Shown here: positions 2,287 through 16,232 of the stretch, piece after piece
How positions within the stretch are numbered: the stretch's first letter is position 1
How the letters are laid out: each line of letters opens with the position of its first letter
Source of the DNA: Pseudoduganella dura
GTDB taxonomy: Bacteria > Pseudomonadota > Gammaproteobacteria > Burkholderiales > Burkholderiaceae_D
Reading direction: 5' to 3'
Assembly: GCF_009727155.1 (NCBI RefSeq)
Contig: NZ_WNWM01000002.1
Coordinates: 4,340,001-4,404,000, forward strand
DNA length: 64,000 nt
Notes under the pieces: model-generated
The model's input: only the letters and a program-made list of their open reading frames with translations
Databases searched by the model: none
Told to the model about the DNA's origin: nothing
Program-made: the position numbers and the translations under genes

Positions 2287-3258
2287 ATGACGGCCATGGA
2301 CCAGTTGCGCGCAATGGAAATCTTTGTCGAAGTGGCCCGGCAGCGCAGCTTTTCCGGCGCGGCGCGCCGGCTCGGCCTGTCGCGCGCGATGGTATCGAAG
2401 CATATCCTCCAGCTGGAGGAAAAACTGAACGTCCGGCTGCTGCACCGCTCCACCCGCGAAGTGAGCCTGACCGATGCCGGCCAGGCCTACCTGGCCCCGT
2501 GCGACGCGGCCGTGAGGGGAGCGCAGGAAGCGGCGCGCATCGTCATGCAGACCGGCGATACGCTGGCCGGCCCGTTGCGCATCCAGGCGCCGTCGAGCTT
2601 CGGCGTCGCCTGGCTGGCCGATGCGCTGGCCCGTTTCAGCCAGCCGCACCCGCAACTGCGGCCCCTGCTGCATGTGGACGATGCGCTGCTCGATCCGATC
2701 GCCCACGGTTTCGACCTGACGATCCGCGTGGGCGGCATTCCGGACAGCCGCGCGCTGGCGATCCGTCCGCTGGCGCCGTGCCGCGCCGTGCTGTGCGCAT
2801 CGCCCGGCTATCTCCGCAGCCACGGCAAGCCTGCCGCACCCGAGGATCTGCGGAACCACCGCTGCCTGCATTTCTCGCACCTCACCGACGGCACCGCATG
2901 GCACTTCGAACGGGCAGGCGAACGGCGCACGGTGCACGTCGACGCGTCGTTCACATCGAACAACGGCCTGGTGCTCCACCATGCGGCGCTGCAGGGCACC
3001 GGCATCGTCTACAGCACCACGTTCCTCGCCTGGCGCGAGCTGCAGGCCGGCACGCTGGTGGCGGTGCTGCCGGAATGGCAACTGCCGCTGAATTACCTGA
3101 GCGCGCTATACCCGGCCAGCGGCCGGCCATCGCCCAAGGTGCGCAAGCTGATCGATTTCCTGGTCGCGGAGTACCAGCCGGTGCCGCCGTGGGATGCGGC
3201 GCCCGGGCCGGCCGTTCACCTTCCCGCGCTTCAGACCGTCCACGCTCCGTCCGCATAA
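2287..3258 (+). CDS. LysR-family transcriptional regulator
   Basis: This 323-residue protein has the N-terminal winged helix of the LysR family: MEIFVEVARQRSFSGAARRL is followed by LSRAMVSKHILQLEEKLNVR and LLHRSTREVSLTDAG. The remaining residues (about 90-300) form the type 2 periplasmic-binding fold used for effector sensing. It resembles the CrgA/DsdC-like subgroup in which the effector domain begins with GPLRIQAP. Possible starts are GTG 2278, ATG 2287 and ATG 2296, and none has a convincing ribosome-binding site, so 2287 is a compromise. It is divergent from the phyH operon. Its 3' end overlaps the convergent M29-like gene by 28 bp. Confidence 0.9.
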   Translation: MTAMDQLRAMEIFVEVARQRSFSGAARRLGLSRAMVSKHILQLEEKLNVRLLHRSTREVSLTDAGQAYLAPCDAAVRGAQEAARIVMQTGDTLAGPLRIQAPSSFGVAWLADALARFSQPHPQLRPLLHVDDALLDPIAHGFDLTIRVGGIPDSRALAIRPLAPCRAVLCASPGYLRSHGKPAAPEDLRNHRCLHFSHLTDGTAWHFERAGERRTVHVDASFTSNNGLVLHHAALQGTGIVYSTTFLAWRELQAGTLVAVLPEWQLPLNYLSALYPASGRPSPKVRKLIDFLVAEYQPVPPWDAAPGPAVHLPALQTVHAPSA

Positions 3259-4256
3259 ATCCGTTCGCCGTCGAGATACACGCCTTCGGTCACCGCGAAC
3301 ACATCCACGTGATAGCGCGCATCCTTGCGCCTGATCTGCGGCTTCTGGTATTGCCCGTGCTTGGCGCCCAGCGACAGGTGCACGCCGCACATCCGCTCGT
3401 AGGTGCCGATATCGTCCACCGTGCGGGTGAACGAGAATGCCCGGTTCATGCCGAAACCCAGCTCGCGCACCCACACGTCGCCTTCATGGGCGCGGATGAT
3501 GGCCAGCATCTCGTCGAAAGCCGGCGTGCTGTTTTCCGCGCCGGTCACGCGGCCCCGCTCGACGATCATCGTGACCGGTTCGAGCGGGCGGTTGACGCGG
3601 AACGACGTATCGCCGAACACGAACACGCGCACGCGGCCGTTCACCGCTTCCAGGTCGCGTGCCTCCGTAAACACTTCGCCGATCGGGAACAGCCCGCCCA
3701 CGTTCTTCAGCGCCGAATAGTCGCCGATGTTCAGCTTGGCTTCCTCGAACGGCGAGGCGAACACGAGCTCGGCACCGTTCCCGCTGTCCACCACGCCGCC
3801 CTGCGCCCGGTCCAGGCGTTCCTTCAGCGCATGGCCCGTGCCGCGGAAGTAGGCCGGGTCGTAGGCCAGCGCGTCGATGTACACCAGTCCCTGGGCGCCC
3901 GGCATGCGCGACAGGTGCAGGTGCTCGATCACTTTCAGTCCCTGCTGGAACAGCTCCATGCGGATCCGGTACTCGTTGAGCCGGAAGCTGGTGGTCTGGA
4001 TCAGCACCACCAGGTCGCGTGGTGCCAGTGCCGCGAAGGCGGCCAGCACCTCGTCGGCGGCGACCGCGTCGAAATCGATGAAGACGCCGCCGGGCAGCGC
4101 GCGCCGGTAGGCTTCCGTCAACACGGCGTTCAGCTCGCTGCGGCGGTCGAACACCACCAGCGCCCGGTGCGCGGGCCCGTGTTCGAGCGCGAAGGCGAGC
4201 AGGTCGGCCACGTTGCGCGCGGCGGTGTCGATGGCGGTGGATGGAAAAGTCGTCAT
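3231..4256 (-). CDS. M29-like aminopeptidase/dioxygenase-fold metalloprotein
   Basis: This 341-residue cytosolic protein looks like the aminopeptidase T (M29)-like group, which also contains the 2,5-dihydroxypyridine dioxygenase NicX. Visible features include the conserved-looking ENSTPAFDEMLAIIRAHEG, the segment WVRELGFGMN with a possible metal-binding glutamate, and HLSLGAKHGQY near the C-terminus with two histidines and an HVDVF strand. The start at 4256 was chosen because the longer frame reads through low-probability sequence and an intergenic gap. Whether it is a peptidase or a ring-cleaving oxygenase cannot be told from the sequence. It is convergent with lysR and stands alone. Confidence 0.55.
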   Translation of the reverse strand: MTTFPSTAIDTAARNVADLLAFALEHGPAHRALVVFDRRSELNAVLTEAYRRALPGGVFIDFDAVAADEVLAAFAALAPRDLVVLIQTTSFRLNEYRIRMELFQQGLKVIEHLHLSRMPGAQGLVYIDALAYDPAYFRGTGHALKERLDRAQGGVVDSGNGAELVFASPFEEAKLNIGDYSALKNVGGLFPIGEVFTEARDLEAVNGRVRVFVFGDTSFRVNRPLEPVTMIVERGRVTGAENSTPAFDEMLAIIRAHEGDVWVRELGFGMNRAFSFTRTVDDIGTYERMCGVHLSLGAKHGQYQKPQIRRKDARYHVDVFAVTEGVYLDGERIYADGAWTV

Positions 4257-4423: not shown

Positions 4424-4885
4424 ATGAGCATTACATTTGGCCAGGATTTGCCGCTCGAGCGGCCCGATGCGGATGGCCGCGCGGCGCTGTTCGTCCCGAA
4501 GGCGGATATCAAGGAAGATGTGCTGCAGACGCTGCGCAAGGGCGCGGCCGTGGTCGGCTTCGGCAACCATGACCGTACCGTCACGATCTACTTCGAAAGC
4601 AACCGCTTCAACGAGCCGACCCTGGCCAAGTGGGAGCAGAAGGCGCGCAAGGCCTACGCCCGGCTGGTGGACGACCTGCCCACCACTTCCAAGATGCAGA
4701 CCCGGCTGGAATATTTCGAGCAGGTGGGCTACATCAGCGGCAAGGGCCTCAGCATCCGCCGCATGGACAGCCTGAAACGCTGGCTGGAATTTTCCGAGGC
4801 GCTGGACACGGCGCCGGCCAGCGAAAGCGTGACCTGGGCGCCGCCGGCACCGCCGAAAAAAAGCAGCACCGGCAGCGACCTGTAA
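4424..4885 (+). CDS. Conserved hypothetical protein, 153 residues
   Basis: I do not recognise this family. The protein is soluble, with no signal peptide or membrane helix. It opens with MSITFGQDLPLERPDADGR, has a predicted alpha/beta core (AAVVGFGNHDRTVTIYFES), a basic amphipathic helix rich in K/R, and a disordered C-terminal tail with PPAPPKKSS. The codon use matches its neighbours, and a ribosome-binding site (GGAGCGACAGG) precedes the ATG. A strong terminator follows at 4945. It appears to be a single-gene transcript, probably lineage-specific. Confidence 0.7.
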   Translation: MSITFGQDLPLERPDADGRAALFVPKADIKEDVLQTLRKGAAVVGFGNHDRTVTIYFESNRFNEPTLAKWEQKARKAYARLVDDLPTTSKMQTRLEYFEQVGYISGKGLSIRRMDSLKRWLEFSEALDTAPASESVTWAPPAPPKKSSTGSDL

Positions 4886-4944: not shown

Positions 4945-4976
4945 AACGCCCCGCCTTCGTGCGGGGCGTTTGTTTT
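4945..4976 (+). terminator. Rho-independent terminator after the 4424 gene
   Basis: The stem AACGCCCCGC pairs with GCGGGGCGTT across a short loop and is followed by TGTTTT. It separates the hypothetical gene from the tubulin-like cluster. Confidence 0.85.
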
Positions 4977-5055: not shown

Positions 5056-6582
5056 ATGGATGAATGGTGGCGGGCCGGGGACAGCGTGTGGCGTGAGGAC
5101 GCAGCCTCGTCCACACGGTTCGTGCTCGAGGCGGTGCAGGGTGTGCCACGGATCGACTGGGAGCTGGCGCGCGGCCGGCTGACGGACGTGGCGCAGCTGG
5201 TGGGCGCGGCGCTGCCCGCCACGTGCGCGCACGCGGCGATCTTCCCCCAGGGTTTTGCGTTTTGCCCCGAGTGCGGCGCACCGGTGCATGCCGCCGCGCC
5301 CGCGCCGGAGACGGCGTGGTGGGGACCGGCCACGGGCTCGCTGCCGCCCGGCGCGGCGCCGCTGCCGCGCCACGTGCCGCACGGCCTGCCGCAAACGGCG
5401 CTGCCGCTGGGCGAAGCACTCGAGGGGCGCGAGCCCGAACCGTTCGTGGGCCGCGCAGACCTGCGCATGCCCGCACCGCCCAATTCCCTCTGCGTGTTTG
5501 CCGCCGCCGATTTCGGCTTTGCCGCCCAGCGCCTCATCGCGCTGGCGTATACCCGCAACGTGGTGCAGTACTGGGACCCGCCCGGCAACCGCTGGCACGT
5601 GTTCACCGCCGACGACGGCTCCGCCGACCTGCACTTCGCCATCTCGGCCTATGCATGGCTGCCGCCGGCCGATGCGGCGCGGCGCGGCGAGTTCGGCCTG
5701 GTGCCCACGGCGCAGGGCCTGTTCCGCCTGATCCTGAACCCGCTTGCGGAAAGCTGGCGCACCGAACCCGTGTTCCAGGCACGGCTGGCCGCCAGCCCGG
5801 GAGCCGTCGGCCGCCGCATGGCCTGCCCGTTCGTGGCGCCGGAGGGCGTGCGCCTGTGGACCGCCGGCGCCGACGGTGCCGATCCCGAAGTGCTGGACAT
5901 CGTGTCCCCCGACCCGGCCGTGCCGGTGCCGGCATCGGGCTGGTCGCGCCCGTTCAGCTATGACGGCCGCCTGCACTGGCTGCACGACGAAGGCCAGTTG
6001 CTGTGGCGCCCCGGCCAGCCGGCGCGCTGGCTGCCGTGGCCGTTCCCATGGATGCCGCGCCTGCAGTTCGGCGGCCCGGTGCGCAGCCGCGATGGCCGCC
6101 TGTGGCTGATCGGGAACGATGGCGCCGGCTATTCGTTCCGCGCGCTGGGCGATGAGGCGGGACTCGGCACGCCGCAGGTCGAGCAGATCGACGGCGCGCG
6201 GCTGGGCTTCGGCACGCTGCTGTTCCGCCGCGGCCACCAGGTCAAGGACGATCCCTGGTCGGACGAGGATGTGGAAGACCAGGCGCGCGGCGATGCGCTC
6301 GTGCTGCCGCTGCTCGAAGCGGTGTCGGCCACGCGCGGCCAGCCGTCCGGCCTGGTGCTGCGCTTTCCCGGCTTTACCGGCCGCGCCGAAGCCGCGCTGG
6401 CCGGCGAGGTGCTGCCTCGCACGTTCGTCGAATGGATCGGCCGCCACAACGTGATCCTCGATGAAATCGCCCGGTTGAAGAACCCCGGCGAGTGCGTGCC
6501 GTTCGTCTGCGACGGCAGCCTGTGGCTGCATCACCCGTCATGGAACGAGATCCGCGGCTGGCGCCTGGAGGGCCTGGCGTGA
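5056..6582 (+). CDS. Zinc-ribbon protein, first gene of the tubulin-like cluster
   Basis: This 508-residue soluble protein is not assigned to a named family. From the ATG at 5056 a half zinc ribbon is visible: C57-x-H59 and the knuckle C70-P-E-C73-G. The rest is rich in short beta-type segments such as DGRLHWLHDEGQLLWRPG and DGRLWLIGNDG, which look like blades of a beta-propeller. Upstream in-frame starts exist at 5038 (ATG) and 5020 (TTG); 5056 has the best purine-rich spacer (GGGGGA). The stop overlaps the next gene by four bases (GTGA), so the product probably works with the von Willebrand A-like protein. No enzyme motif was found. Confidence 0.7.
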   Translation: MDEWWRAGDSVWREDAASSTRFVLEAVQGVPRIDWELARGRLTDVAQLVGAALPATCAHAAIFPQGFAFCPECGAPVHAAAPAPETAWWGPATGSLPPGAAPLPRHVPHGLPQTALPLGEALEGREPEPFVGRADLRMPAPPNSLCVFAAADFGFAAQRLIALAYTRNVVQYWDPPGNRWHVFTADDGSADLHFAISAYAWLPPADAARRGEFGLVPTAQGLFRLILNPLAESWRTEPVFQARLAASPGAVGRRMACPFVAPEGVRLWTAGADGADPEVLDIVSPDPAVPVPASGWSRPFSYDGRLHWLHDEGQLLWRPGQPARWLPWPFPWMPRLQFGGPVRSRDGRLWLIGNDGAGYSFRALGDEAGLGTPQVEQIDGARLGFGTLLFRRGHQVKDDPWSDEDVEDQARGDALVLPLLEAVSATRGQPSGLVLRFPGFTGRAEAALAGEVLPRTFVEWIGRHNVILDEIARLKNPGECVPFVCDGSLWLHHPSWNEIRGWRLEGLA

Positions 6583-8078
6583 CGCGCTGGCGGCCGGTGT
6601 CATCGCGGCGGCTTGCACTCCTGCTCGCCGGCGCATTGTCCGCCTTCGCGGCGCAGGCGGCATCGCATGTCTTCCTGGTGCAGAATTCCGGCTGGATGGA
6701 GCCGTTCTACACGGACCCGCAATCGCCCTACAAGGCGCTGGTGACGGAAGTGGTGCAGGCCGCGATGCAGCCCGGCGATGCGCTGGTGCTGGCTTCGTTC
6801 AACCAGGGCGTGCCCGGTGCGCCGTCGCCGCACGCGCTGCTGGCGCAAAAAGGCAAGCCGGACCGCGAAAAACTGCGCGGCGTGCTCGATCCGCTGCAGG
6901 TGGGCCGCAAGCCGGGTGGCAAGGCAATGGCCGACACGGATCTGGGCGAAGCGGTCGGCACCGCCATCGACGGCGCGCTGGCCGGCAAGCCGGGCCTGGT
7001 GTGGCTGTTCACGAACAACCGCAACAGCCCGAACAACGACCAGGCCACGGCGCGCCGCAACCGCGAGTTCTACCAGCTGATCCATGAGGGGAAGGCGATC
7101 CGCAAGGCGCTGGCGTTTCCGCTGAAGATGCCGGTGCAGGGCGCGCAATACCGCGCCGGCGGCCTGATGGTCTACGTGTTCGCGGTGCAGGAGCAGGGCG
7201 TGCGCGAGCTCGATGCGCTGCTGGCGGGCGGCCGGCTGAAACAGGTGATCACCGAAACGCCCGCGCGCCTCAAGCCGCTGGACCAGGATACCGTGCGGCT
7301 CGTGCCGGCGCGCGTGGAAAACACGCCCGGCGTGCGCTACACGGTGCTGCCAGGCGGCCGGCTGCGCGCCGAACTCGATGCGGACACGCCCGCATCCGGC
7401 AATGCGCGCATCACGTGGCGGCTGGAAAACGCGATGTACCCGTACACGATCAAGCAGGCCGACATCACCGCGCAGGCCGCGCTGGCCGGCGAAATGAAGC
7501 CGGTGGCGTTGAGCCCGGACGCGGTGCGCAACCTGGCGCCGGGCAGGCCGCAGCCGCTGGCATCGTCGCTGGGCCTTCCCGTGGCGAACCTGCCCGGCAA
7601 ATGGTCGCTGGCGGCGCTGTCGACGGCCGGCTCGGCGCAGGTGCTGCCGGGCCGGATCGAGGTACGGCTGGCCAACCAGCGGCTGGAACTGTCGCAGGCG
7701 TTCCGCGAACGGATGGCCGAGCTGTTCCCCGGCGACCCGCTGCCGGATATCTTCACACCGCCGGCCGAGATACAGCACTCGCGTGCCGTGCTGCCGGTCG
7801 AGGTGCGGCTGCGATACGGCTCCGGTCCGCTGCTGGCAGCGATCGGCGGCCTGTTCGCGCTGCTGGCGACGGGCGGCGCGCTGCTGGTGGCGGCAACGCG
7901 CGGCCGCAAGGTGCTCGTTACCGTCGACGGCGAACAGCGCACGCTGCGCACCAGGGCCGGCGCGAAGACCCCGCTTTACAATGCCGCCGGCGACCAGGTC
8001 GCGGAGCTGCGCACCACGCTGTTCGGGCACCAGCTGGCGAACGTGCACGAAGGCGCCAGCGTGCGCCTCGGCAAATGA
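6579..8078 (+). CDS. Secreted/membrane-anchored von Willebrand A-like protein
   Basis: The 499-residue product begins with an apparent signal peptide (RRLALLLAGALSAFAAQA, cleavage before ASHVF). A vWA-like fold follows: strand VFLVQNSGWMEPFY, strand GDALVLASFNQ, then TDLGEAVGTAI and strand GLVWLFTNNRNS. The MIDAS motif, normally DxSxS, is degenerate here: the aspartate position is Gln and the last serine is Trp. A single membrane helix (about residues 415-445) is followed by a basic 50-residue cytosolic tail that resembles a small beta domain. The start GTG at 6579 overlaps the previous stop, and the stop lies in a 12-bp tandem repeat. The role is inferred to be a periplasmic sensor or scaffold linked to the tubulin-like protein. 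Confidence 0.75.
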   Translation: MTRWRPVSSRRLALLLAGALSAFAAQAASHVFLVQNSGWMEPFYTDPQSPYKALVTEVVQAAMQPGDALVLASFNQGVPGAPSPHALLAQKGKPDREKLRGVLDPLQVGRKPGGKAMADTDLGEAVGTAIDGALAGKPGLVWLFTNNRNSPNNDQATARRNREFYQLIHEGKAIRKALAFPLKMPVQGAQYRAGGLMVYVFAVQEQGVRELDALLAGGRLKQVITETPARLKPLDQDTVRLVPARVENTPGVRYTVLPGGRLRAELDADTPASGNARITWRLENAMYPYTIKQADITAQAALAGEMKPVALSPDAVRNLAPGRPQPLASSLGLPVANLPGKWSLAALSTAGSAQVLPGRIEVRLANQRLELSQAFRERMAELFPGDPLPDIFTPPAEIQHSRAVLPVEVRLRYGSGPLLAAIGGLFALLATGGALLVAATRGRKVLVTVDGEQRTLRTRAGAKTPLYNAAGDQVAELRTTLFGHQLANVHEGASVRLGK

Positions 8079-8120
8079 GGTCGCAAATCAGGTCGCAAAT
8101 CAGGTCGCAAATAATGTCGC
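8078..8120. repeat. 12-bp tandem repeat, about 3.5 copies
   Basis: The unit AGGTCGCAAATC occurs three times in a row (8078-8113), with a degenerate fourth copy ATGTCGCAGAC. The first base of the array is the last base of the vWA gene stop codon. The array fills the 64-bp gap before the next start and, read in the next gene's frame, would be open and encode VANQ repeats. Confidence 0.85.
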
Positions 8121-8142
8121 AGACAAGAATCAAAGGATAACC

Positions 8143-8631
8143 ATGCAAGCCACCGAATCCCAGCGCGATCCCGGTTTCCGGATCCCGGAAGACAAACCCG
8201 TGCAACCGCCGGCCGGCGACGGCACGCTGTCCACCACGCCGCCTTCCGGCACGGGCACCGCTACCGGCACCGCCAGCGGCACAGGAACCGGTAACAGCGC
8301 CGGCATCGAGGTCGCGCCGGAAGGGCAGGTGCCGGCCACCGACACCTCCACGCGCGATATCGCGATCGGCGGCGCCGTGTTCCTGTTCCTGCTGGTGATC
8401 TTCTTCTTTGCCCGCAACGCGTTCGCCAACCACCTGGTGCGCCGCCGCGTGGCGCCTTCGTCGGCCGACACGGCCGGCTGGCTGCTGTTCTTCGGGCTGG
8501 CGTTCCTGTCGGCCGCCGTGGTGCTGGGCTTCGTCAATTCGACCAAGTTCCTGAACGTGGCCATCACCGGCACGCTGCTCGTGTTCGGCATCGCCGCCAT
8601 CGGCGGCGCGCTGTTCACCGGCCGGAGGTAG
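8143..8631 (+). CDS. Three-helix membrane protein of the tubulin-like cluster
   Basis: This 162-residue protein has a long polar N-terminus rich in Gly, Thr and Ser (TGTATGTASGTGTGNS) and then three hydrophobic helices: IAIGGAVFLFLLVIFFF, AGWLLFFGLAFLSAAVVL and ITGTLLVFGIAAIGGALF. No catalytic motif is seen. The ATG at 8143 follows AAAGGATAACC. The stop is only 3 bp from the start of the tubulin-like gene, whose ribosome-binding site GGAGG lies inside this gene. It is a plausible membrane anchor for the cytosolic tubulin-like protein, by inference from context. Confidence 0.75.
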   Translation: MQATESQRDPGFRIPEDKPVQPPAGDGTLSTTPPSGTGTATGTASGTGTGNSAGIEVAPEGQVPATDTSTRDIAIGGAVFLFLLVIFFFARNAFANHLVRRRVAPSSADTAGWLLFFGLAFLSAAVVLGFVNSTKFLNVAITGTLLVFGIAAIGGALFTGRR

Positions 8632-8634
8632 GCC

Positions 8635-11600
8635 GTGGACCCGATCGGAAAGAAGACCGAACTGAAGGTCGACCTGCGGCCGACGCTGTTCATCGGCGCC
8701 GGCGGCACCGGCATGGAAGTGATGATGCGGATCCGGCGCCGCATCCTGTCGGCCGTGTGGAACCGGCACCACCCGGCGCGGGTCGAGTCGATCGGCGAAT
8801 TCCCCGTCGCGCGCTTCCTGCACATCGACCTGGACAGCGGCGCCGTCATCGACGAGGGCAAGTCGCAGCGCACCGACCCGTGGTACGAACTGGTCAAGCT
8901 GGGCGATGAAGAGAGACTGGTCGAGCCGATCGACCTGCAGCAGTACCATGAATCCGACGACAGCCTGGCGCGCTTTCCGCTGATCGAAAGCTGGATGCCG
9001 CTGCGGCCGAAGAAGCTGCGTTCGCTGGGCATCGATCCATCGCTGGGCGCGGGCCAGATCCGCGCCGTGGCGCGGCTGTACCTGTTCGACAAGTATCCGA
9101 AACTGCGCGGCCGCATCAAGGGCGCGCTGAACTTCCTCGCCTCGAACGCGGGCATCGAGCGCAAGGACAATTACCAGCGCCTCGGCCTGCAGGTCGACAC
9201 GTCGAAGTTCCGTATCGTCGTCATCGCGTCGAACGCGGGCGGCACCGGTGCCGGCACCGCGCTCGACCTGGGCTGGCTGGCCAAGGCCATCGCGCGGCAG
9301 GAAGTGGCGGACAGCCAGGTCGACCTGGTGATGTTCATGCCCACCGGGTATGCGCACGCCAACAAGGAGCGCACCGAGGCCAATGCCTATGCCACGCTGA
9401 TGGAAATGGAAACGGCGATGCGCGACATGAACGCGCAGGTGCGCTGGGCCGACCCGGACAGCCTGGTCGGCCGCGGCGCGCCGTACGACGACGTGTATTT
9501 CGTCGATACGGCCAACCTGGCGAACAAGGCCACCCAGGACGTGAAGGATGCGTACCAGATGGTGGCCGACTCACTGTTCGAGGATTTCGCCTCCGCCGAT
9601 TTCGCCAACCGCAAGCGCTCGGTCGCCGTGAACCAGCAGCAGCACAAGCTGGGGCCGTTCAACCCGAAGGTGCCGGAAGGGCGCTTTGGCGACATGCGCC
9701 TGTCGTACTCGAAAGCCTATTCGGCGTTCGGCCAGTCGGTGCTCGATACGCAGCAGGGCCTGCGCGAGGACATCCGCGCTTACGAACTGGCGGCCCTGAT
9801 GGTGAAGGCGTTCTTCGGCATCATTGGCACCGACGGCGCTCCGGCGCGCCGCGCCGGCGACGGCGAGCGCGACGTGTTCATGCGCGAGCAGATGTGGCTG
9901 GCAGAGCGCCCGTTCGACGAATTCCCCGATTTCAAGAAGGGCACGGTGGAGGTGACGCCGTTCCAGGAATACGCGCTGACCGACCAGCTGCTGATGGACA
10001 AGGACCAGCGCTCGCTGCTGGAACGGGTGGAATCGAAGGTGCAGACGGAAATCGACCGCATCACCGGCGGCTACGACCTGAAGGAATGGCGCGCCAAGAT
10101 CGCCGAGCTGCTGCCGCAGCTGGAGCGCGACGCGATCCGCGAGGCCGGGGCCACCGCCGAGACCAGCGAGGACCGGCTCAAGCGCCACACCCAGGAACTG
10201 GTGATGCGGCTGAAGGGCCGCATCCGCGAGCGGCTGTACGGCTTGCTGGACGACCGCCGCCAGGGCGGCCTGGAGTTCGTGCTGTCGCTGCTGGAGCAGA
10301 TCAAGGCCCGCGTGGCCCAGCGCGACATTCCGCGCATGGAGCACAACGAGCGCCGCTACCGCGAGATGCGCGATGCGCTGCGCACCCGGCAGGTCGAAGA
10401 GTCGCTGAACAATCTCTCGCAGGCGGCCGGCAAGTGGATCAACGCCGGCGCGCAGGCGCGCGAAGTGATCGTGCACCTGAAACGCGATATCGCCGACTAC
10501 CTGCGTTTTCACCTGTTGTCCGTCACCGCCGGGCAGTCCGCCGAAGTGCTCCGGCAGGTTTCAGGCTGGCTGGGCGAGCCGCTGTCGGTCGACGAGAAGG
10601 GGCAGGCCGTCTGGTCCGGCATCGCCGGCGAGTTCCAGGAAGGGCGGCGCTGCGTGGAAGCGATGCTGGGCGCCGTCGACCAGCGCGTGGCGCAGCTGCG
10701 CGCCGATGCGCAGCACGAGCATGCCACCTACATGAAGCTGGCGAACGGGGACGCGCCGCCGCCGGTGAAGCTGACCGGCGACGTGTCGGCGTGGAGCGAG
10801 GAAGTGCTGCTCGAATTCGGCGGCTCGGCGCGGCTGTTCCCGCAGCTGGGCGACGAGAAGCTGCGCTCCTCGCTGCTGCTGAAACTGTTCCGGCGCGCAC
10901 AGACGCAGCTGTCCACGGAAGAAGCGGGGACGGAACCTGTCGATCCGCTGCTGGAGCGGCTGCTGGCGATGTCGGTGCAGGAGCGGCAGCGCGTGTTCGG
11001 CGAGTGGCTCAAGAGCGCGATGCCGTGGGTGAACGCGCGCTTTTCGGCCGAGTTCACGCCGCGCGCCGACCAGTTCAAGTGTTTCGTCGGCGTGGGCGAT
11101 GTCAACGCGTGGAAGCGGCTGGAAGCCGAAATCCGCGCCGCCGCGCCCACCGGCTACTTCCACGGCGAACTGGTCAATATCGTCAACACGGGCGTCAAGG
11201 GCCGGGCGGTATGCTACATCGAACTGTCCGGGTTCCCGATGACGGTGCTGCGCGGGCTTCCCACGTGGCGCACCTCCTACCAGATCGAGAACCCGAAGAT
11301 CCCCACGCACCTGCATTTCGACGCGACGCGCTTCCGCCACCCGATCGCGCCCGGCATGGATGAACTGAACCGGCTGGCCGACGATTACGAATGGTTCCTG
11401 CAGGCGGTCGCGCTCGGCGTGCTGAAGCGCAAGGCCGACCTGGCCGACCGCGAGGCGTCGTTCCAGCCGCGCGGCCAGTACCTGTACGAAGTGGAGCAGG
11501 GCTCCGGCGAATGGCTGCAGGTGGGCAACGAGTACGCGGTGCGCTCGAACGGGCTGCCGTCGTATTACCGCGAGCAGATCATCGCCACCGTGCAGCAGCG

Positions 11601-12300
11601 CCTGGCCCGGCTGGGACCGCACCAGTTCCTGCTGCTGGCGGCGCTGATGCGCCATTACCAGCAGCGCGTCTACCAGCCGCGCCTGGAAGTGGATGAAACC
11701 GGCGCCGAACTGCCGTCACCGTCGCTGCCGAACATCACGGCCAAGCGGCTGCACGACGAATGGCTGCGCCGCGCGCTGGCGGCCGAACCGGCGCTGGCGG
11801 CGTCGCCGCATCATGCGCTGGACCGTGCGCTGGAGTTGCTGCCGCAGTGGAGCGAGCCGGTGCCGGGATCGGCTTCCGATGCATATGCATGGGAAGTGCA
11901 GCAGAGCGTGGACAAGCGCGTGCCGCACGCGCAATTCCTGAACGGCGAAGCCGCGGCGAAAGCGCTGCTCGATGGCGGCCCGACGCTGGGCAAGACCCCG
12001 GCTGGCGCCATCGGCGCGGGAAGCGCTTTCGCCGGCGGTGCGGCCCTCGTCGCACCCGCTGCCGGCGTGCCGGCGCTGTTCAAGGTGTTCGTCAACAAGA
12101 CGCAGCAAGGGCCGTACACGGTGGCCGAGCTGGCCCAGCGCATCGCGCTCGGCGAAGTGGGCGCCGCCACCAAGGTGTGGAACATGCGCTGGGTGCCGCA
12201 CGTGGACGGTTGGCAGCCGGCCGGGGCGGTAGCGGAACTGGCGCCGCTGTTCGCGGCGGCGATCCCCGATCCCTCGGATGACATTCCAGATCCGGAGTAA
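8635..12300 (+). CDS. Tubulin/FtsZ-like protein (Tubulin_2-like family) with C-terminal GYF_2-like domain
   Basis: This 1221-residue protein has two hallmarks of the tubulin-FtsZ fold. A nucleotide-binding loop near the N-terminus reads LFIGAGGTGMEVMMRIRRR (residues 18-36). The tubulin signature loop appears as NAGGTGAGTALDLGW (about 200-214), preceded by the strand FRIVVIAS. FtsZ is about 400 residues, so this is a large member with a long helical middle (about 450-1100). Residues about 1148-1205 match a GYF_2-like domain: FKVFVNKTQQGPYTVAEL and then VWNMRW...GWQPAG. Makarova and Koonin described such FtsZ-like families beside vWA genes and proposed membrane remodelling. The GTG start at 8635 has a GGAGG seven bases upstream. 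GTP binding is inferred. Confidence 0.8.
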   Translation: MDPIGKKTELKVDLRPTLFIGAGGTGMEVMMRIRRRILSAVWNRHHPARVESIGEFPVARFLHIDLDSGAVIDEGKSQRTDPWYELVKLGDEERLVEPIDLQQYHESDDSLARFPLIESWMPLRPKKLRSLGIDPSLGAGQIRAVARLYLFDKYPKLRGRIKGALNFLASNAGIERKDNYQRLGLQVDTSKFRIVVIASNAGGTGAGTALDLGWLAKAIARQEVADSQVDLVMFMPTGYAHANKERTEANAYATLMEMETAMRDMNAQVRWADPDSLVGRGAPYDDVYFVDTANLANKATQDVKDAYQMVADSLFEDFASADFANRKRSVAVNQQQHKLGPFNPKVPEGRFGDMRLSYSKAYSAFGQSVLDTQQGLREDIRAYELAALMVKAFFGIIGTDGAPARRAGDGERDVFMREQMWLAERPFDEFPDFKKGTVEVTPFQEYALTDQLLMDKDQRSLLERVESKVQTEIDRITGGYDLKEWRAKIAELLPQLERDAIREAGATAETSEDRLKRHTQELVMRLKGRIRERLYGLLDDRRQGGLEFVLSLLEQIKARVAQRDIPRMEHNERRYREMRDALRTRQVEESLNNLSQAAGKWINAGAQAREVIVHLKRDIADYLRFHLLSVTAGQSAEVLRQVSGWLGEPLSVDEKGQAVWSGIAGEFQEGRRCVEAMLGAVDQRVAQLRADAQHEHATYMKLANGDAPPPVKLTGDVSAWSEEVLLEFGGSARLFPQLGDEKLRSSLLLKLFRRAQTQLSTEEAGTEPVDPLLERLLAMSVQERQRVFGEWLKSAMPWVNARFSAEFTPRADQFKCFVGVGDVNAWKRLEAEIRAAAPTGYFHGELVNIVNTGVKGRAVCYIELSGFPMTVLRGLPTWRTSYQIENPKIPTHLHFDATRFRHPIAPGMDELNRLADDYEWFLQAVALGVLKRKADLADREASFQPRGQYLYEVEQGSGEWLQVGNEYAVRSNGLPSYYREQIIATVQQRLARLGPHQFLLLAALMRHYQQRVYQPRLEVDETGAELPSPSLPNITAKRLHDEWLRRALAAEPALAASPHHALDRALELLPQWSEPVPGSASDAYAWEVQQSVDKRVPHAQFLNGEAAAKALLDGGPTLGKTPAGAIGAGSAFAGGAALVAPAAGVPALFKVFVNKTQQGPYTVAELAQRIALGEVGAATKVWNMRWVPHVDGWQPAGAVAELAPLFAAAIPDPSDDIPDPE

Positions 12301-12303
12301 GCG

Positions 12304-13599
12304 GTGACGTCAGAATTTTCCAGCAATTTTCGCTGCATCAATGCCGCGTGCGGCCGCGCATTCCCGCGCGCCGTGCGGTTCTGCCCCTGGTGCGGCACCG
12401 GGCAGGCGGCCGCGGCTGCACGGCCGGCCGCCGCCGCGCCGGCACCGGCTTCGCCACCTGTTGCACCGCCGGCACCGGCTGCGCCCCCCGTCGCACCGCC
12501 CCCGGCGGCTTCTCCCGCGCCACCGGTCCGGCCTGCCGCCACGGCATCGGCCGCGGCTGCTGCGCCAGCCGCGGCGGCATCGCGCCCCGGCCCCACGCAG
12601 CCACCGCGCCACCAGCAGCCGCAGCCGGCGGCCGGCGTACCGCGCCCGCCTGGCGGCGCCGGCAGCGGTGCCGGGCCGTCGCTGCCGCCCGTGCGCAAGC
12701 CGGTCGGCAAGGGCACGTGGTTTTTCGTCGCGCTGTTGCTGCTGGCGGTGTGGTTCCTGGTCAAGCCGGGCGATCCGTCGAAACAGTGGCGCGACAAGGT
12801 CGATGACGCCATCGCATTGACGGAGGAGTGCCGCATGGGCGATGCGCGCGCCGCGTTGAAGGAACTGCGCGGCGACAAAGCCGATGCCGCCCAGCTGGCG
12901 CGCCTGCAAAAGGCGATCGCCGCCACCGCGCCGGCCTGCGAGAAGAAAAGCCAGCGCGCCAAGGCATGGACCGACACGCAGGCCGCGCTGGAGGCGGCGA
13001 TGGCCGCCGGCGCGCCCGATAAGGCTTCAACGCGGCTGTCCGCCTTCGTCAAGCGCTGGAACGACGACGAACAGACCCGCGAATGGCGTGACCGCATCGA
13101 CGTGCGCCGCGCCGAAAAGCTGCTGGACGACGCCAACGCCTGCCTGGCCAGGAAAGACCGCGCGTGCGTGGAAGCCAGGCTGAACGCGGCCGAAAAGCTG
13201 AACCGGCCGGAAACCCGGCCACGCGTCGAGGCGCTGCGGGAATCGCTGTCGCGCATGCTGGAATCCACATTGCTGGAGGGCGCCGTGGAGGGGGGCGCGT
13301 CGCCAACGGCCAACCCCGCCAACCCGGGCGGCTATCCGCCGCCGCTGTCCGCCACGCCTCCGCGGGTCGCAACGGCGGGAGTGACACCGAACAGCGCCGA
13401 AGCCCGGCGCCTGCAGGCGGGAGCGGAACGCGAACTTGCGCAAGGCAACTACCGCAGCGCGATCGGCCTTGCCGGCCAGTGTGCCGCGGCCGGCGGCAGC
13501 GACTGCGCCGCGCTGCGCGACAGGGCCGCCCGCCTGGAGCGCGAACAGCATGCCTGCGTGCAGGCCGGCCGTGAATGGGTGGGCCAGCGCTGCGAGTAA
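12304..13599 (+). CDS. Zinc-ribbon, transmembrane, coiled protein closing the tubulin-like cluster
   Basis: This 431-residue protein starts with a zinc ribbon (RCINAACGRAF then RFCPWCGTG, four cysteines within residues 11-34). An Ala/Pro-rich linker of about 90 residues follows, then one membrane helix (WFFVALLLLAVWFLV, near 140-155). The C-terminal domain (about 160-431) is helical and Cys-containing, with TPR-like stretches such as LKELRGDKADAAQLARLQKA and the closing CVQAGREWVGQRCE. The topology would place the zinc ribbon in the cytosol and the helical domain in the periplasm. The GTG start lies 3 bp after the tubulin-like stop, so the two are surely co-transcribed. I do not recognise a named family beyond these parts. 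Confidence 0.7.
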   Translation: MTSEFSSNFRCINAACGRAFPRAVRFCPWCGTGQAAAAARPAAAAPAPASPPVAPPAPAAPPVAPPPAASPAPPVRPAATASAAAAAPAAAASRPGPTQPPRHQQPQPAAGVPRPPGGAGSGAGPSLPPVRKPVGKGTWFFVALLLLAVWFLVKPGDPSKQWRDKVDDAIALTEECRMGDARAALKELRGDKADAAQLARLQKAIAATAPACEKKSQRAKAWTDTQAALEAAMAAGAPDKASTRLSAFVKRWNDDEQTREWRDRIDVRRAEKLLDDANACLARKDRACVEARLNAAEKLNRPETRPRVEALRESLSRMLESTLLEGAVEGGASPTANPANPGGYPPPLSATPPRVATAGVTPNSAEARRLQAGAERELAQGNYRSAIGLAGQCAAAGGSDCAALRDRAARLEREQHACVQAGREWVGQRCE

Positions 13600-14135: not shown

Positions 14136-16232
14136 TCAACTGCCGGTTTTCGCGGCCGCCGCCGGGATTTCCGTCGCTTCCGGGGCCTCGCCCGGCACCA
14201 CGACCAGGTCCACGAAGCCGTTGCGCCACGCGCCCTCGAGATCCTGCTCGATCGCTTCCAGCGTCGTCCGCTCCAGGTTGGCGAAGCCGCGCAAGCCGTA
14301 CGCGCGGTTGCGCCCGTGCGACTTGGCCATGTACAGCGCCATGTCGACCAGGTTGACCGCGCGCTCCCATGACAGCGGCGTGCCGCCCGGCGCCAGCGGA
14401 TAGGGCGCGAACCCCACCGACACATTGACCTGCAAGGTCTTGCCACCGTGCGCCAGCGTTTGCGATGAAATGCCGTGCAGGATGCGGCGCGCCACGTCAT
14501 CGAGGCCGCGGCGCGGTACCGCCGGCAGGAACGCGAGGAATTCCTCGCCGCCCCAGCGCACGATCATGTCCGTTTCGCGCAGTACCACGCGCAGGCTTGC
14601 CGCGATCATTTTCAGCACCGCATCGCCGGCGGCATGGCCATGGCTGTCGTTGATGTGCTTGAAATGGTCCACGTCCAGCAGGAACAGCGCGCCGATGATG
14701 TCGTCGCCGCCGCCGTTGTGCTGGCGGCGCTCCGCCTGCGCATGGCTGCGCATGAAGTCCTGGAAGTGGCGGCGGTTGTACAGCGATGTCAGCGGATCGA
14801 GCGTGCTCTGCTGCTTCAGTTCCAGGTTCTTCACCTCGAGCTTGGCATTGGCCTGCCGCACCTTGCGGTACAGCAGGCCCACGACCAGCGAGGCCAGTGC
14901 GAACACGATCGCCAGCAGCCACCAGATGCGCTGCTGCAACCGGCGGTTGGCCAGTTCGACGCTTTGCACGCGGTTGTCCTGCCGCAGCGCCTCGATCTGG
15001 CGCTGCTTGGTTTCGGTGTCGTACTTCTGCTGCAGTTCCAGCACCGCTTTCTGGCGCTGCTCGGCGAACATTTCGTTGGAGATGCGCCGTTCGCGGTGAT
15101 ACGCGGCGACGGCGCCCGCGTAATCCCCGGCCCGCTCCAGCGCCGCCCCGTACTCGACCAGCACGCCCTGCAGCTCGGGCTTGACGCCGATCTTTTCGAA
15201 GGTTGCCAGCCCCGCCTCGAACTGGCGCTTGCCTTCGGCCACGCGGCCCATGCCGAGGTAGGCCAGGCCCAGGTTGACATGGGCCGTCGAGATGGAGTTC
15301 TGGTGGCGCGCCTCGGTGCCTGCCGCCAGCGCCTGCCGGGCGAAATCGGCGGCGCGCCGGTAGTCGTGGTCCTTCAGGTAGCTGTCGGCCAGGTTGACGA
15401 GCGAGCTGGCGATCATCTGCCGCGCGCCCAGCCTGCGTTCCACGGCCAGCCCTTCGAACAGCGCCTTGCGCGCCCGCTCGTACTGCTTCGACTCGATCGC
15501 CAGGCCGTACTCGGTGGACAGCGCGATCGCCAGCCGCCCCTGCGAGCGCATCCGCTTGGCCACGGCAAGCGACTCCGCCTGCACTTCCCATCCCTTGTCG
15601 TACTGGTGCATGTCCGTGTACAGCTGCGCGAGCGCGTTGAGCGCGCCGGCCAGCGGCACCTCGTCGCCGCGGACGGTGCGCGCCAGGTCGATCGCCGCCT
15701 GCAGCCTGGCCAGCGCCATGGGGTAGTTGCCCTGTTCCTGGAAAGTCTGGCCGGCCGTGACGATTCCCTGCACCTGCAGCGGCACGTCGCGCGTGGCGCG
15801 CGCACGGCGCTCGGCCTCGAACGCCGCCGCATGCGCGGCAGGCAGGTCATCCATTTCGAACAGCGCATAGCTGCGCGCCAGCAGGCCCTTGGCCAGCGCG
15901 CCGTCGTCGCGCTGCGCCCGGCCGTACGCCACCAGCTCGTCGGCCACGGCCAGCGCGCCCTTCGTATCCCCGGCGCGCCGCGTGGCGCTGCTGTACAGCG
16001 ACAGGAATTCGGCGCGGGTGGCCACGCCGCCGCCGCGCGCCTCGGACTCGATCGCCCGCAGCCGGCGCAACGCTTCGTCCGGGCCGAAGCGCACCATCTC
16101 GCGCGTGGCGGCCAGCTCCGCATCGACAGCCGGCTGGCCGAACGCGAGCACGGGCGCCAGCGCCAATGCGGCGGCGAGTCGGCGGCAGGCATGTAAAACG
16201 GAGGAAGAAGGGAAGGGTGGTCGGGCAGCCAC
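14136..16232 (-). CDS. Diguanylate cyclase with periplasmic TPR sensor region
   Basis: From the GTG at 16232 (AAGGA seven bases upstream) the protein has 698 residues. It has a signal peptide (LAAALALAPVLAFGQ), an array of TPR-like helices (about 60-390), a coiled stretch, a membrane helix (WWLLAIVFALASLVVGLLY, near 430-450) and a GGDEF domain at the C-terminus. The catalytic motif is GGEEF, preceded by the inhibitory-site motif RETD five residues upstream, so it should make cyclic di-GMP from GTP with product inhibition. Longer in-frame ATG starts exist at 16286 and 16367. A TATAAT box at 16285-16290 on this strand argues for the shorter start. The gene stands alone and faces the lipoprotein gene. 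Confidence 0.88.
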   Translation of the reverse strand: MAARPPFPSSSVLHACRRLAAALALAPVLAFGQPAVDAELAATREMVRFGPDEALRRLRAIESEARGGGVATRAEFLSLYSSATRRAGDTKGALAVADELVAYGRAQRDDGALAKGLLARSYALFEMDDLPAAHAAAFEAERRARATRDVPLQVQGIVTAGQTFQEQGNYPMALARLQAAIDLARTVRGDEVPLAGALNALAQLYTDMHQYDKGWEVQAESLAVAKRMRSQGRLAIALSTEYGLAIESKQYERARKALFEGLAVERRLGARQMIASSLVNLADSYLKDHDYRRAADFARQALAAGTEARHQNSISTAHVNLGLAYLGMGRVAEGKRQFEAGLATFEKIGVKPELQGVLVEYGAALERAGDYAGAVAAYHRERRISNEMFAEQRQKAVLELQQKYDTETKQRQIEALRQDNRVQSVELANRRLQQRIWWLLAIVFALASLVVGLLYRKVRQANAKLEVKNLELKQQSTLDPLTSLYNRRHFQDFMRSHAQAERRQHNGGGDDIIGALFLLDVDHFKHINDSHGHAAGDAVLKMIAASLRVVLRETDMIVRWGGEEFLAFLPAVPRRGLDDVARRILHGISSQTLAHGGKTLQVNVSVGFAPYPLAPGGTPLSWERAVNLVDMALYMAKSHGRNRAYGLRGFANLERTTLEAIEQDLEGAWRNGFVDLVVVPGEAPEATEIPAAAAKTGS

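Follow-up and report, generated by a model that had tools for sequence, protein, structure and literature searches.

A conserved five-gene unit centred on a tubulin-like protein in Pseudoduganella dura and its relatives, tentatively a membrane-anchored trans-envelope assembly

What kind of system do five adjacent genes of Pseudoduganella dura encode, when the longest of them specifies a tubulin-like protein and its neighbours carry zinc ribbons and membrane helices? The genes were analysed in a 64,000-nucleotide stretch (the window) of a 6.95 Mb genome, and the nearest homologues of the gene 4 product were from Pseudoduganella, Massilia, and Rugamonas. An earlier interpretation made from the letters of the window (the sequence-only reading) had described five genes running in one direction, and the five frames on the forward strand bore this out (Table 1), with a 4-bp overlap between genes 1 and 2 and subsequent intergenic gaps of 64, 3, and 3 bp. 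The five frames are coding and under purifying selection, with dN/dS of 0.10-0.40 in 20/20 gene-by-relative comparisons (five genes against four relatives). The sequence separating gene 1 from its upstream neighbour contains a terminator-like hairpin, which was regarded as a pattern match only, because eight such sites occur in the region against 6.6 expected from shuffled sequence, and the promoter scan found no promoters. Directly upstream, positions 4424-4885 encode a conserved protein of 153 residues that had no Pfam match and was present in 17 loci including the window among the window and the 40 loci compared; positions 14136-16151 encode a protein with TPR and GGDEF domains. Searches of NCBIfam and PHROGs gave nothing usable (weak matches only, below cut-offs or with E > 0.03), PADLOC produced no match among the five genes, and the homologue search found no match in phages and two records in plasmids.

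Table 1. Positions of the five genes and their features in the window.
Feature	Position	Strand	Description or basis
Terminator-like hairpin	4945..4970	+	10-pair stem, T-rich tail
Gene 1, 508 aa	5056..6582	+	cytosolic: no TM, no signal peptide seen
Gene 1 zinc-ribbon-like Cys/His patch, residues 57-76	5224..5283	+	sub-threshold Pfam match
Gene 2, 499 aa	6579..8078	+	signal-peptide-like N-terminal helix, putative periplasmic vWA, TM, small cytosolic beta domain
Gene 2 vWA domain, residues 23-234	6645..7280	+	
Gene 2 QNSGWM, at DxSxS (MIDAS) position	6681..6698	+	homologue conservation
Gene 2 TNN, at position of last MIDAS Asp	7011..7019	+	homologue conservation
Gene 2 TM helix, residues 419-437	7833..7889	+	hydropathy; model helix 416-440
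Gene 3, 162 aa	8143..8631	+	variable N-terminal tail and three TM helices
Gene 3 GFRIP, GFx[LIV]P motif	8173..8187	+	conserved across loci
Gene 4, 1221 aa	8635..12300	+	Tubulin_2 (FtsZl1) and GYF_2; model of residues 12-1211
Gene 4 T1 loop GAGGTG	8695..8712	+	sequence
Gene 4 T4 loop SNAGGTGAG	9229..9255	+	sequence
Gene 4 SADFAN, T7-like segment without second acid	9592..9609	+	assignment inferred
Gene 4 mainly helical stretch, about residues 461-794	10015..11016	+	model secondary structure, alignment span; limits approximate
Gene 4 end of tubulin-type C-terminal domain, about residues 812-906	11068..11352	+	structure alignments; limits approximate
Gene 4 GYF_2 domain, residues 1153-1202	12091..12240	+	Pfam; profile match 7z3c
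Gene 4 C-terminal tail IPDP..IPDP, residues 1208-1221	12256..12297	+	homologue conservation
Gene 5, 431 aa	12304..13599	+	zinc ribbon, Pro/Ala-rich linker, TM, helical C-terminal part
Gene 5 zinc ribbon, C11, C16, C27, C30	12334..12393	+	invariant cysteines
Gene 5 Pro/Ala-rich linker, PPVRKP at TM-side end	12409..12702	+	P128, P129 conservation
Gene 5 TM helix, residues 134-152	12703..12759	+	hydropathy

As Tubulin_2 was rare in the class sample (5/369) and the phylum sample (8/398, own genome included in both), the survey of relatives was based on the family, in which 84 of 294 genomes carried it, and on named genomes. Profiles of each gene were run on 120 loci, consisting of a set of 40 and of 80 species-named loci (the best 80 of 250 relatives), two sets that share species and are not independent. 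The matched stretch of the Rubrivivax gelatinosus relative (L120:8001-11744), whose translation contains one stop codon, was left out. The five genes were found to travel together. Genes 1 to 4 kept the same order and strand in 37/37 loci of types A and B (defined below) in the 40-locus set, the other three being of type C, and in 73/73 species-named loci with at least 3.3 kb of upstream sequence; among the seven species-named loci cut upstream, all four genes were present in two and not in five. Gene 5 came next in 36/37 loci of the 40-locus set and in 64/65 loci with 1.3 kb of downstream sequence. Locus L089 has gene 5 outside the adjacency rule used, and L139 has a zinc-ribbon/TM frame without a profile match at the place of gene 5. 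The hosts include Janthinobacterium, Massilia, Duganella, Rhodoferax, Rubrivivax, Variovorax, Paraburkholderia, Azoarcus, Rhodanobacter, Acinetobacter, and Humidesulfovibrio, and gene order was preserved across the betaproteobacterial, gammaproteobacterial, and Humidesulfovibrio loci. A relative elsewhere in the phylum (L184) also carries genes 1 to 5 in order (E = 9.6e-20, 6.7e-97, 5.7e-19, 3.3e-223, and 3.2e-9, respectively).

The unit comes and goes as a whole. Eight of the 23 same-genus genomes without a full-length gene 4 were inspected, and 8/8 retained the left flank gene (3231-4256 in the window) together with at least one GGDEF gene (14136-16151) on the same strand; the distance to the nearest GGDEF copy was 1.1-4.3 kb, compared with 9.9 kb in the window. 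One of these genomes, G004, has three tandem copies of the TPR/GGDEF gene next to the empty site, and its best-matching copy is 6 kb off, behind two more copies.

Two types of the unit were distinguished by tree and gene content. Type A comprises 26 tree rows including the window, the named rows being Oxalobacteraceae except for one bin labelled Burkholderiaceae, and its loci mostly occupy one common chromosomal site; type B, found in beta- and gammaproteobacteria and Humidesulfovibrio, is 39-46% identical to the window protein and differs from type A in its flanks. Some deep branches of the tree are long and their placement is unsure. The five genes of the sequence-only reading were confirmed, but many relatives have a sixth directly after gene 5, encoding a lipoprotein-like protein with a glycine-zipper region (Pfam glycine-zipper matches below cut-offs). 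Among loci with 2.6 kb of downstream DNA, it was present in 38/39 of type B and 9/61 of type A, and the window genome yielded a weak 43-residue match only; any link to an outer-membrane lipoprotein is thus not universal, since the sixth gene is absent from 52/61 type A loci.

Type C is a second kind of Tubulin_2 protein of about 1000 residues, whose neighbours encode caspase-domain, DUF4384, glycine-zipper-like, and zinc-ribbon/TM/TPR proteins. It was seen at L077, L078, L080, and L183, and in some genomes it co-occurs with type A or B; the caspase-domain protein of L078 starts with a lipoprotein-like signal. A tubulin-GYF relative, L182, lies on plasmid p2 of Azospirillum sp. TSA2s, which is typed as mobilizable. 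Its neighbourhood contains a gene-1-like gene (E = 3.5e-5) and a gene-3-like gene (E = 3.5e-9), no gene-2 match by profile, and, around it, three caspase-family, three OmpA-family, and two DUF4384 genes. As the gene-1-like and gene-3-like neighbours stand together with the caspase, OmpA, and DUF4384 genes, this plasmid locus bridges the kinds.

The centre of the unit is gene 4. Its product matched Tubulin_2 (PF13809) at residues 18-386 (E = 8.3e-46; 157.3 bits against a curated cut-off of 27), and both of the tubulin-type loops proposed earlier are present, T1 as IGAGGTG and T4 as SNAGGTGAGT. The predicted structure (pTM 0.66) contained a tubulin GTPase fold. In the structure comparison, all 50 rows among the matches listed belonged to the tubulin superfamily, and among these matches the coverage ranged from 294/303 residues (TubZ) to 314/360 (CetZ) at 10-15% identity. 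The whole-chain alignments end at model residues 873-897. Gene 4 is therefore predicted by the model to have a complete tubulin fold, its GTPase and C-terminal domains being held apart by a helical insert some 330 residues long (helices at about residues 461-794, two exceeding 40 residues), an insert that could block lateral or longitudinal contacts. Gene 4 resembles CetZ, TubZ, FtsZ, and tubulin in this fold over nearly the whole chain and in the T1 and T4 loops, and differs from them in the helical insert, the GYF domain, and the tail. The support for the fold consists of the model and the Tubulin_2 match: hhalign against 24 FtsZ proteins aligned the T4 region only and was not significant (probability 1.8%, E = 0.027), the gene 4 profile matched no FtsZ or tubulin chain in PDB, and PF00091 gave no match up to E = 5. 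The T7-like segment SADFAN was found in 121/121 type A sequences, and the segment lacked the second acid in 121/121 type A and 50/50 type B sequences. Cell division is not a likely role for gene 4, since the genome has one separate FtsZ-family gene.

The C-terminal end of gene 4 carries the GYF_2 domain that had been suspected there (E = 2.9e-9), whose sole significant match among solved structures was AgmX of Myxococcus (7z3c, E = 1.3e-8), and a conserved tail. The IPDP motif occurred in at least two copies in 118/120 homologues and in one copy in 2/120, and the mean share of the top residue was 0.83 in the tail versus 0.34 in the linker at residues 1126-1150. In type B, most tails are PPPL..PPPL or another Pro-rich version, and the last residues in the Azospirillum relative are PPPVPDLDDDLPPPLP. 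The sequence-only reading had named the Pro-rich linker of gene 5 as a candidate ligand for the GYF domain. Gene 5 has the anticipated zinc ribbon, its four cysteines being invariant in 20/20 aligned members including one of type C, and one TM helix by hydropathy; P128 and P129, the PP before this helix, were kept in at least 90% of the 20 members. The linker of L139 (type B) is charged, with a short Pro patch only. In type C, the tubulin has no GYF match (one scanned) and the zinc-ribbon/TM partner has no Pro-rich linker (two compared), a pattern with which binding of the GYF domain to the linker would be compatible; the correlation between GYF and linker in types A and B versus C is suggestive at most, as the independent lineages behind it are very few. 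The PPPL..PPPL tail of type B gene 4 is a second candidate ligand, in which case the domain would bind its own protein rather than gene 5. The linker of the Humidesulfovibrio gene 5 (L141:11690-12865) contains tandem PPPPPVVEKPIV units, and in the Acinetobacter genes (L137:11761-13356 and L140:11626-13200) additional sequence lengthens the region from the zinc ribbon to the TM helix.

Gene 2 had been called vWA-like with a signal peptide and a membrane helix. Neither Pfam (24 members) nor a profile search against PDB detected a vWA domain, and structure was therefore needed; the AlphaFold model has a vWA fold, and one TM helix apart from the signal peptide region was found by hydropathy. When MIDAS positions were mapped by strand order, the acids of the metal site (DxSxS and a later Asp) were absent, QNSGW and TNN standing in their places; QNSGW was kept in 38/38 alignment rows and 118/120 homologues, and TNN[RK]NS in 120/120 homologues. 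Because these acids are replaced, the classical metal-regulated vWA input is unlikely. Gene 3 has three TM helices by hydropathy, as expected, preceded by an otherwise variable tail in which GFx[LIV]P is embedded; the motif was present in 116/117 gene-3 loci, the remaining locus being truncated at a contig end. In 32/32 loci of the 117 in which the pattern could be read, positive charge was higher on the side following TM1 than on the side preceding it, and by the positive-inside rule the tail would lie in the periplasm. The topology of the membrane proteins, deduced from such charge and hydropathy patterns, is accordingly given here as probable. For gene 1, the proposed zinc ribbon is in doubt: a Pfam match exists but is sub-threshold (E = 0.019-0.029), and the cysteines of the patch are missing in the eight type B members of the alignment. 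The gene-1-like protein of Azospirillum has a Cys patch similar to that of gene 1. A beta-propeller was considered for gene 1 and rejected, with Reg_prop at E = 0.045 in only 1/26 members and no significant self-repeats.

The FtsZl1 family of Makarova and Koonin, to which the locus had rightly been linked, is Tubulin_2 (accessible text of PMC2875224 and of PMC9871819, the latter equating the two). The FtsZl1-vWA operons, as far as the accessible text describes them (PMC2875224), share with our locus Tubulin_2 with a helical region behind it, a patchy distribution, a vWA neighbour with a signal peptide and TM, and further membrane proteins; a P-loop GTPase or Ser/Thr kinase neighbour is described there as frequent and a vWA gene as usual, neither being universal. 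Our locus differs from that description in its GYF domain, its vWA without MIDAS acids, its fixed set of five or six genes, and the tubulin-type C-terminal domain predicted in gene 4. GAP1-N2 conflict systems also combine a tubulin, a membrane vWA, and zinc ribbons, with GYF domains in planctomycete members as in gene 4; according to the available sections, their tubulin forms come from Firmicutes and Actinobacteria and are accompanied by GTPase and GAP1 genes (Kaur et al. 2020, PMC7159879). Neither a P-loop GTPase nor a Ser/Thr kinase gave a Pfam match in the five genes and eight flanking genes scanned, which separates our locus from the GAP1-N2 systems as regards the GTPase and from the FtsZl1-vWA operons as regards both neighbours. 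A syntrophy study describes, in its accessible part, a methanogen operon that is up-regulated by motion and includes vWA and tubulin-like genes (PMC12008871). The literature searched, which was thin on subscription papers, yielded no experimental work on the gene-4 family. Beyond the similarity of the GYF sequences, GltJ/AgmX of Myxococcus gliding belongs to membrane machinery that is connected with GTP and with a cytoskeleton, a likeness to the assembly proposed below. GltJ has a zinc finger, GYF, and TM all in a single protein, whereas in our unit genes 4 and 5 share them out and a tubulin-like protein forms the cytoskeletal element; a paper on GltJ/AgmX reportedly describes a zinc-finger and GYF switch. 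GltJ/AgmX has been linked to gliding motility and acts as an effector of MglA (available text of PMC8262864 and PMC12288465).

Taken together, the best explanation, one to which we give a little less than an even chance, is that the five genes encode one membrane-anchored, GTP-dependent trans-envelope assembly built on the gene 4 tubulin. Gene 4 would be a cytosolic GTP-binding protein ending in a peptide-binding GYF domain and the conserved tail, held at the inner membrane by gene 5, through its zinc ribbon, Pro-rich linker, and TM, and by gene 3, and gene 1 would serve as a cofactor in the cytosol. The periplasmic, metal-independent vWA of gene 2 would perhaps grip gene 3 by its GFx[LIV]P tail; this vWA, together with the helical part of gene 5, would connect gene 4 to the envelope, a connection that in many relatives may extend up to the glycine-zipper lipoprotein. 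By assembling in a GTP-dependent manner, gene 4 would then build or position a trans-envelope structure, like the Myxococcus Glt complex, with a putative role in envelope organisation or traffic. The proposal fits because a tubulin-fold protein with T1 and T4 loops would be tied across the membrane to a vWA and periplasmic helices; we count in its support the conserved unit and order, the gain or loss as a block, Tubulin_2, GYF_2, the tubulin-superfamily matches of the model, the loops, the vWA fold, the zinc ribbon and PP of gene 5, the short motifs, the lipoprotein of type B loci, the AgmX-like GYF, and the separate FtsZ. Weighing against it are the pTM of 0.66, the profile comparisons without a significant FtsZ or tubulin match, the acid missing from the T7-like segment, the helical insert, and the lack of a sixth gene in most type A loci. 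The sequence-only reading, which suggested a transmembrane signalling or trafficking system, stands in part: its folds, topology, GYF_2, and co-travelling genes were upheld. It also survived the two outcomes it had named as refuting, a model lacking the tubulin GTPase fold and a survey in which the five genes separate. A more specific form is unlikely as it stands: long-lived, slow-hydrolysing filaments of gene 4 on the inner membrane (displaced C-terminal domain, T7 without the acid) would serve as a cytosolic backbone, with GYF/Pro docking to gene 5 and the metal-free vWA clasping the gene-3 tail. If true, this would be a bacterial 'focal adhesion' based on tubulin.

The patchy presence of the unit, in 84/294 family genomes with empty sites, would also suit a biological-conflict system akin to the tubulin/vWA/GTPase neighbourhoods, in which the assembly at the membrane would detect a threat and set off an effector or cell death. 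The available text of Kaur et al. 2020 (PMC7159879) counts related tubulin-vWA-ZnR neighbourhoods among predicted conflict systems, and the caspases in type C loci and beside the Azospirillum plasmid relative keep this explanation alive. We nevertheless consider it rather improbable, though the least so of the alternatives, as the five genes include no recognisable effector, PADLOC and the GTPase scan of the five genes and eight flanking genes were negative, most type A loci share one chromosomal site, and dN/dS is low in all five genes.

Slightly less credible still is that gene 4 is a non-polymerising GTP switch or scaffold at the membrane, the helical insert and GYF domain doing the work. 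The T7-like segment without the second acid and the long insert within the fold speak for it, and the filament question was left open for FtsZl1 in the accessible text of Makarova and Koonin 2010; the same text notes, however, that all characterised superfamily members form filaments (PMC2875224). Against the switch is also that a complete tubulin fold is retained in the model, and that loss of the acid may slow hydrolysis yet permit assembly. Beta-tubulin is a precedent for such a loss slowing hydrolysis without stopping assembly. That most of the proteins lack a known function would be expected of chance neighbours or of a loose operon without joint function, which we regard as highly improbable: the order is kept across betaproteobacterial, gammaproteobacterial, and Humidesulfovibrio loci though types A and B have different flanks, and the genes are absent jointly. 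Chance clustering itself was ruled out by the conserved gene order across the surveyed loci.

FtsZl1 has been known since 2010, and whether it possesses the parts needed for filaments had been left open; the complete fold predicted for gene 4 would answer the structural half of that question. The five-gene unit is compact, and bacteria available in culture, Janthinobacterium and Massilia among them, carry it. If gene 4 polymerises, these bacteria would have a cytoskeleton wired to the periplasm; if it does not, the tubulin fold would have been reused as a membrane switch, and both outcomes bear on the evolution of tubulins.
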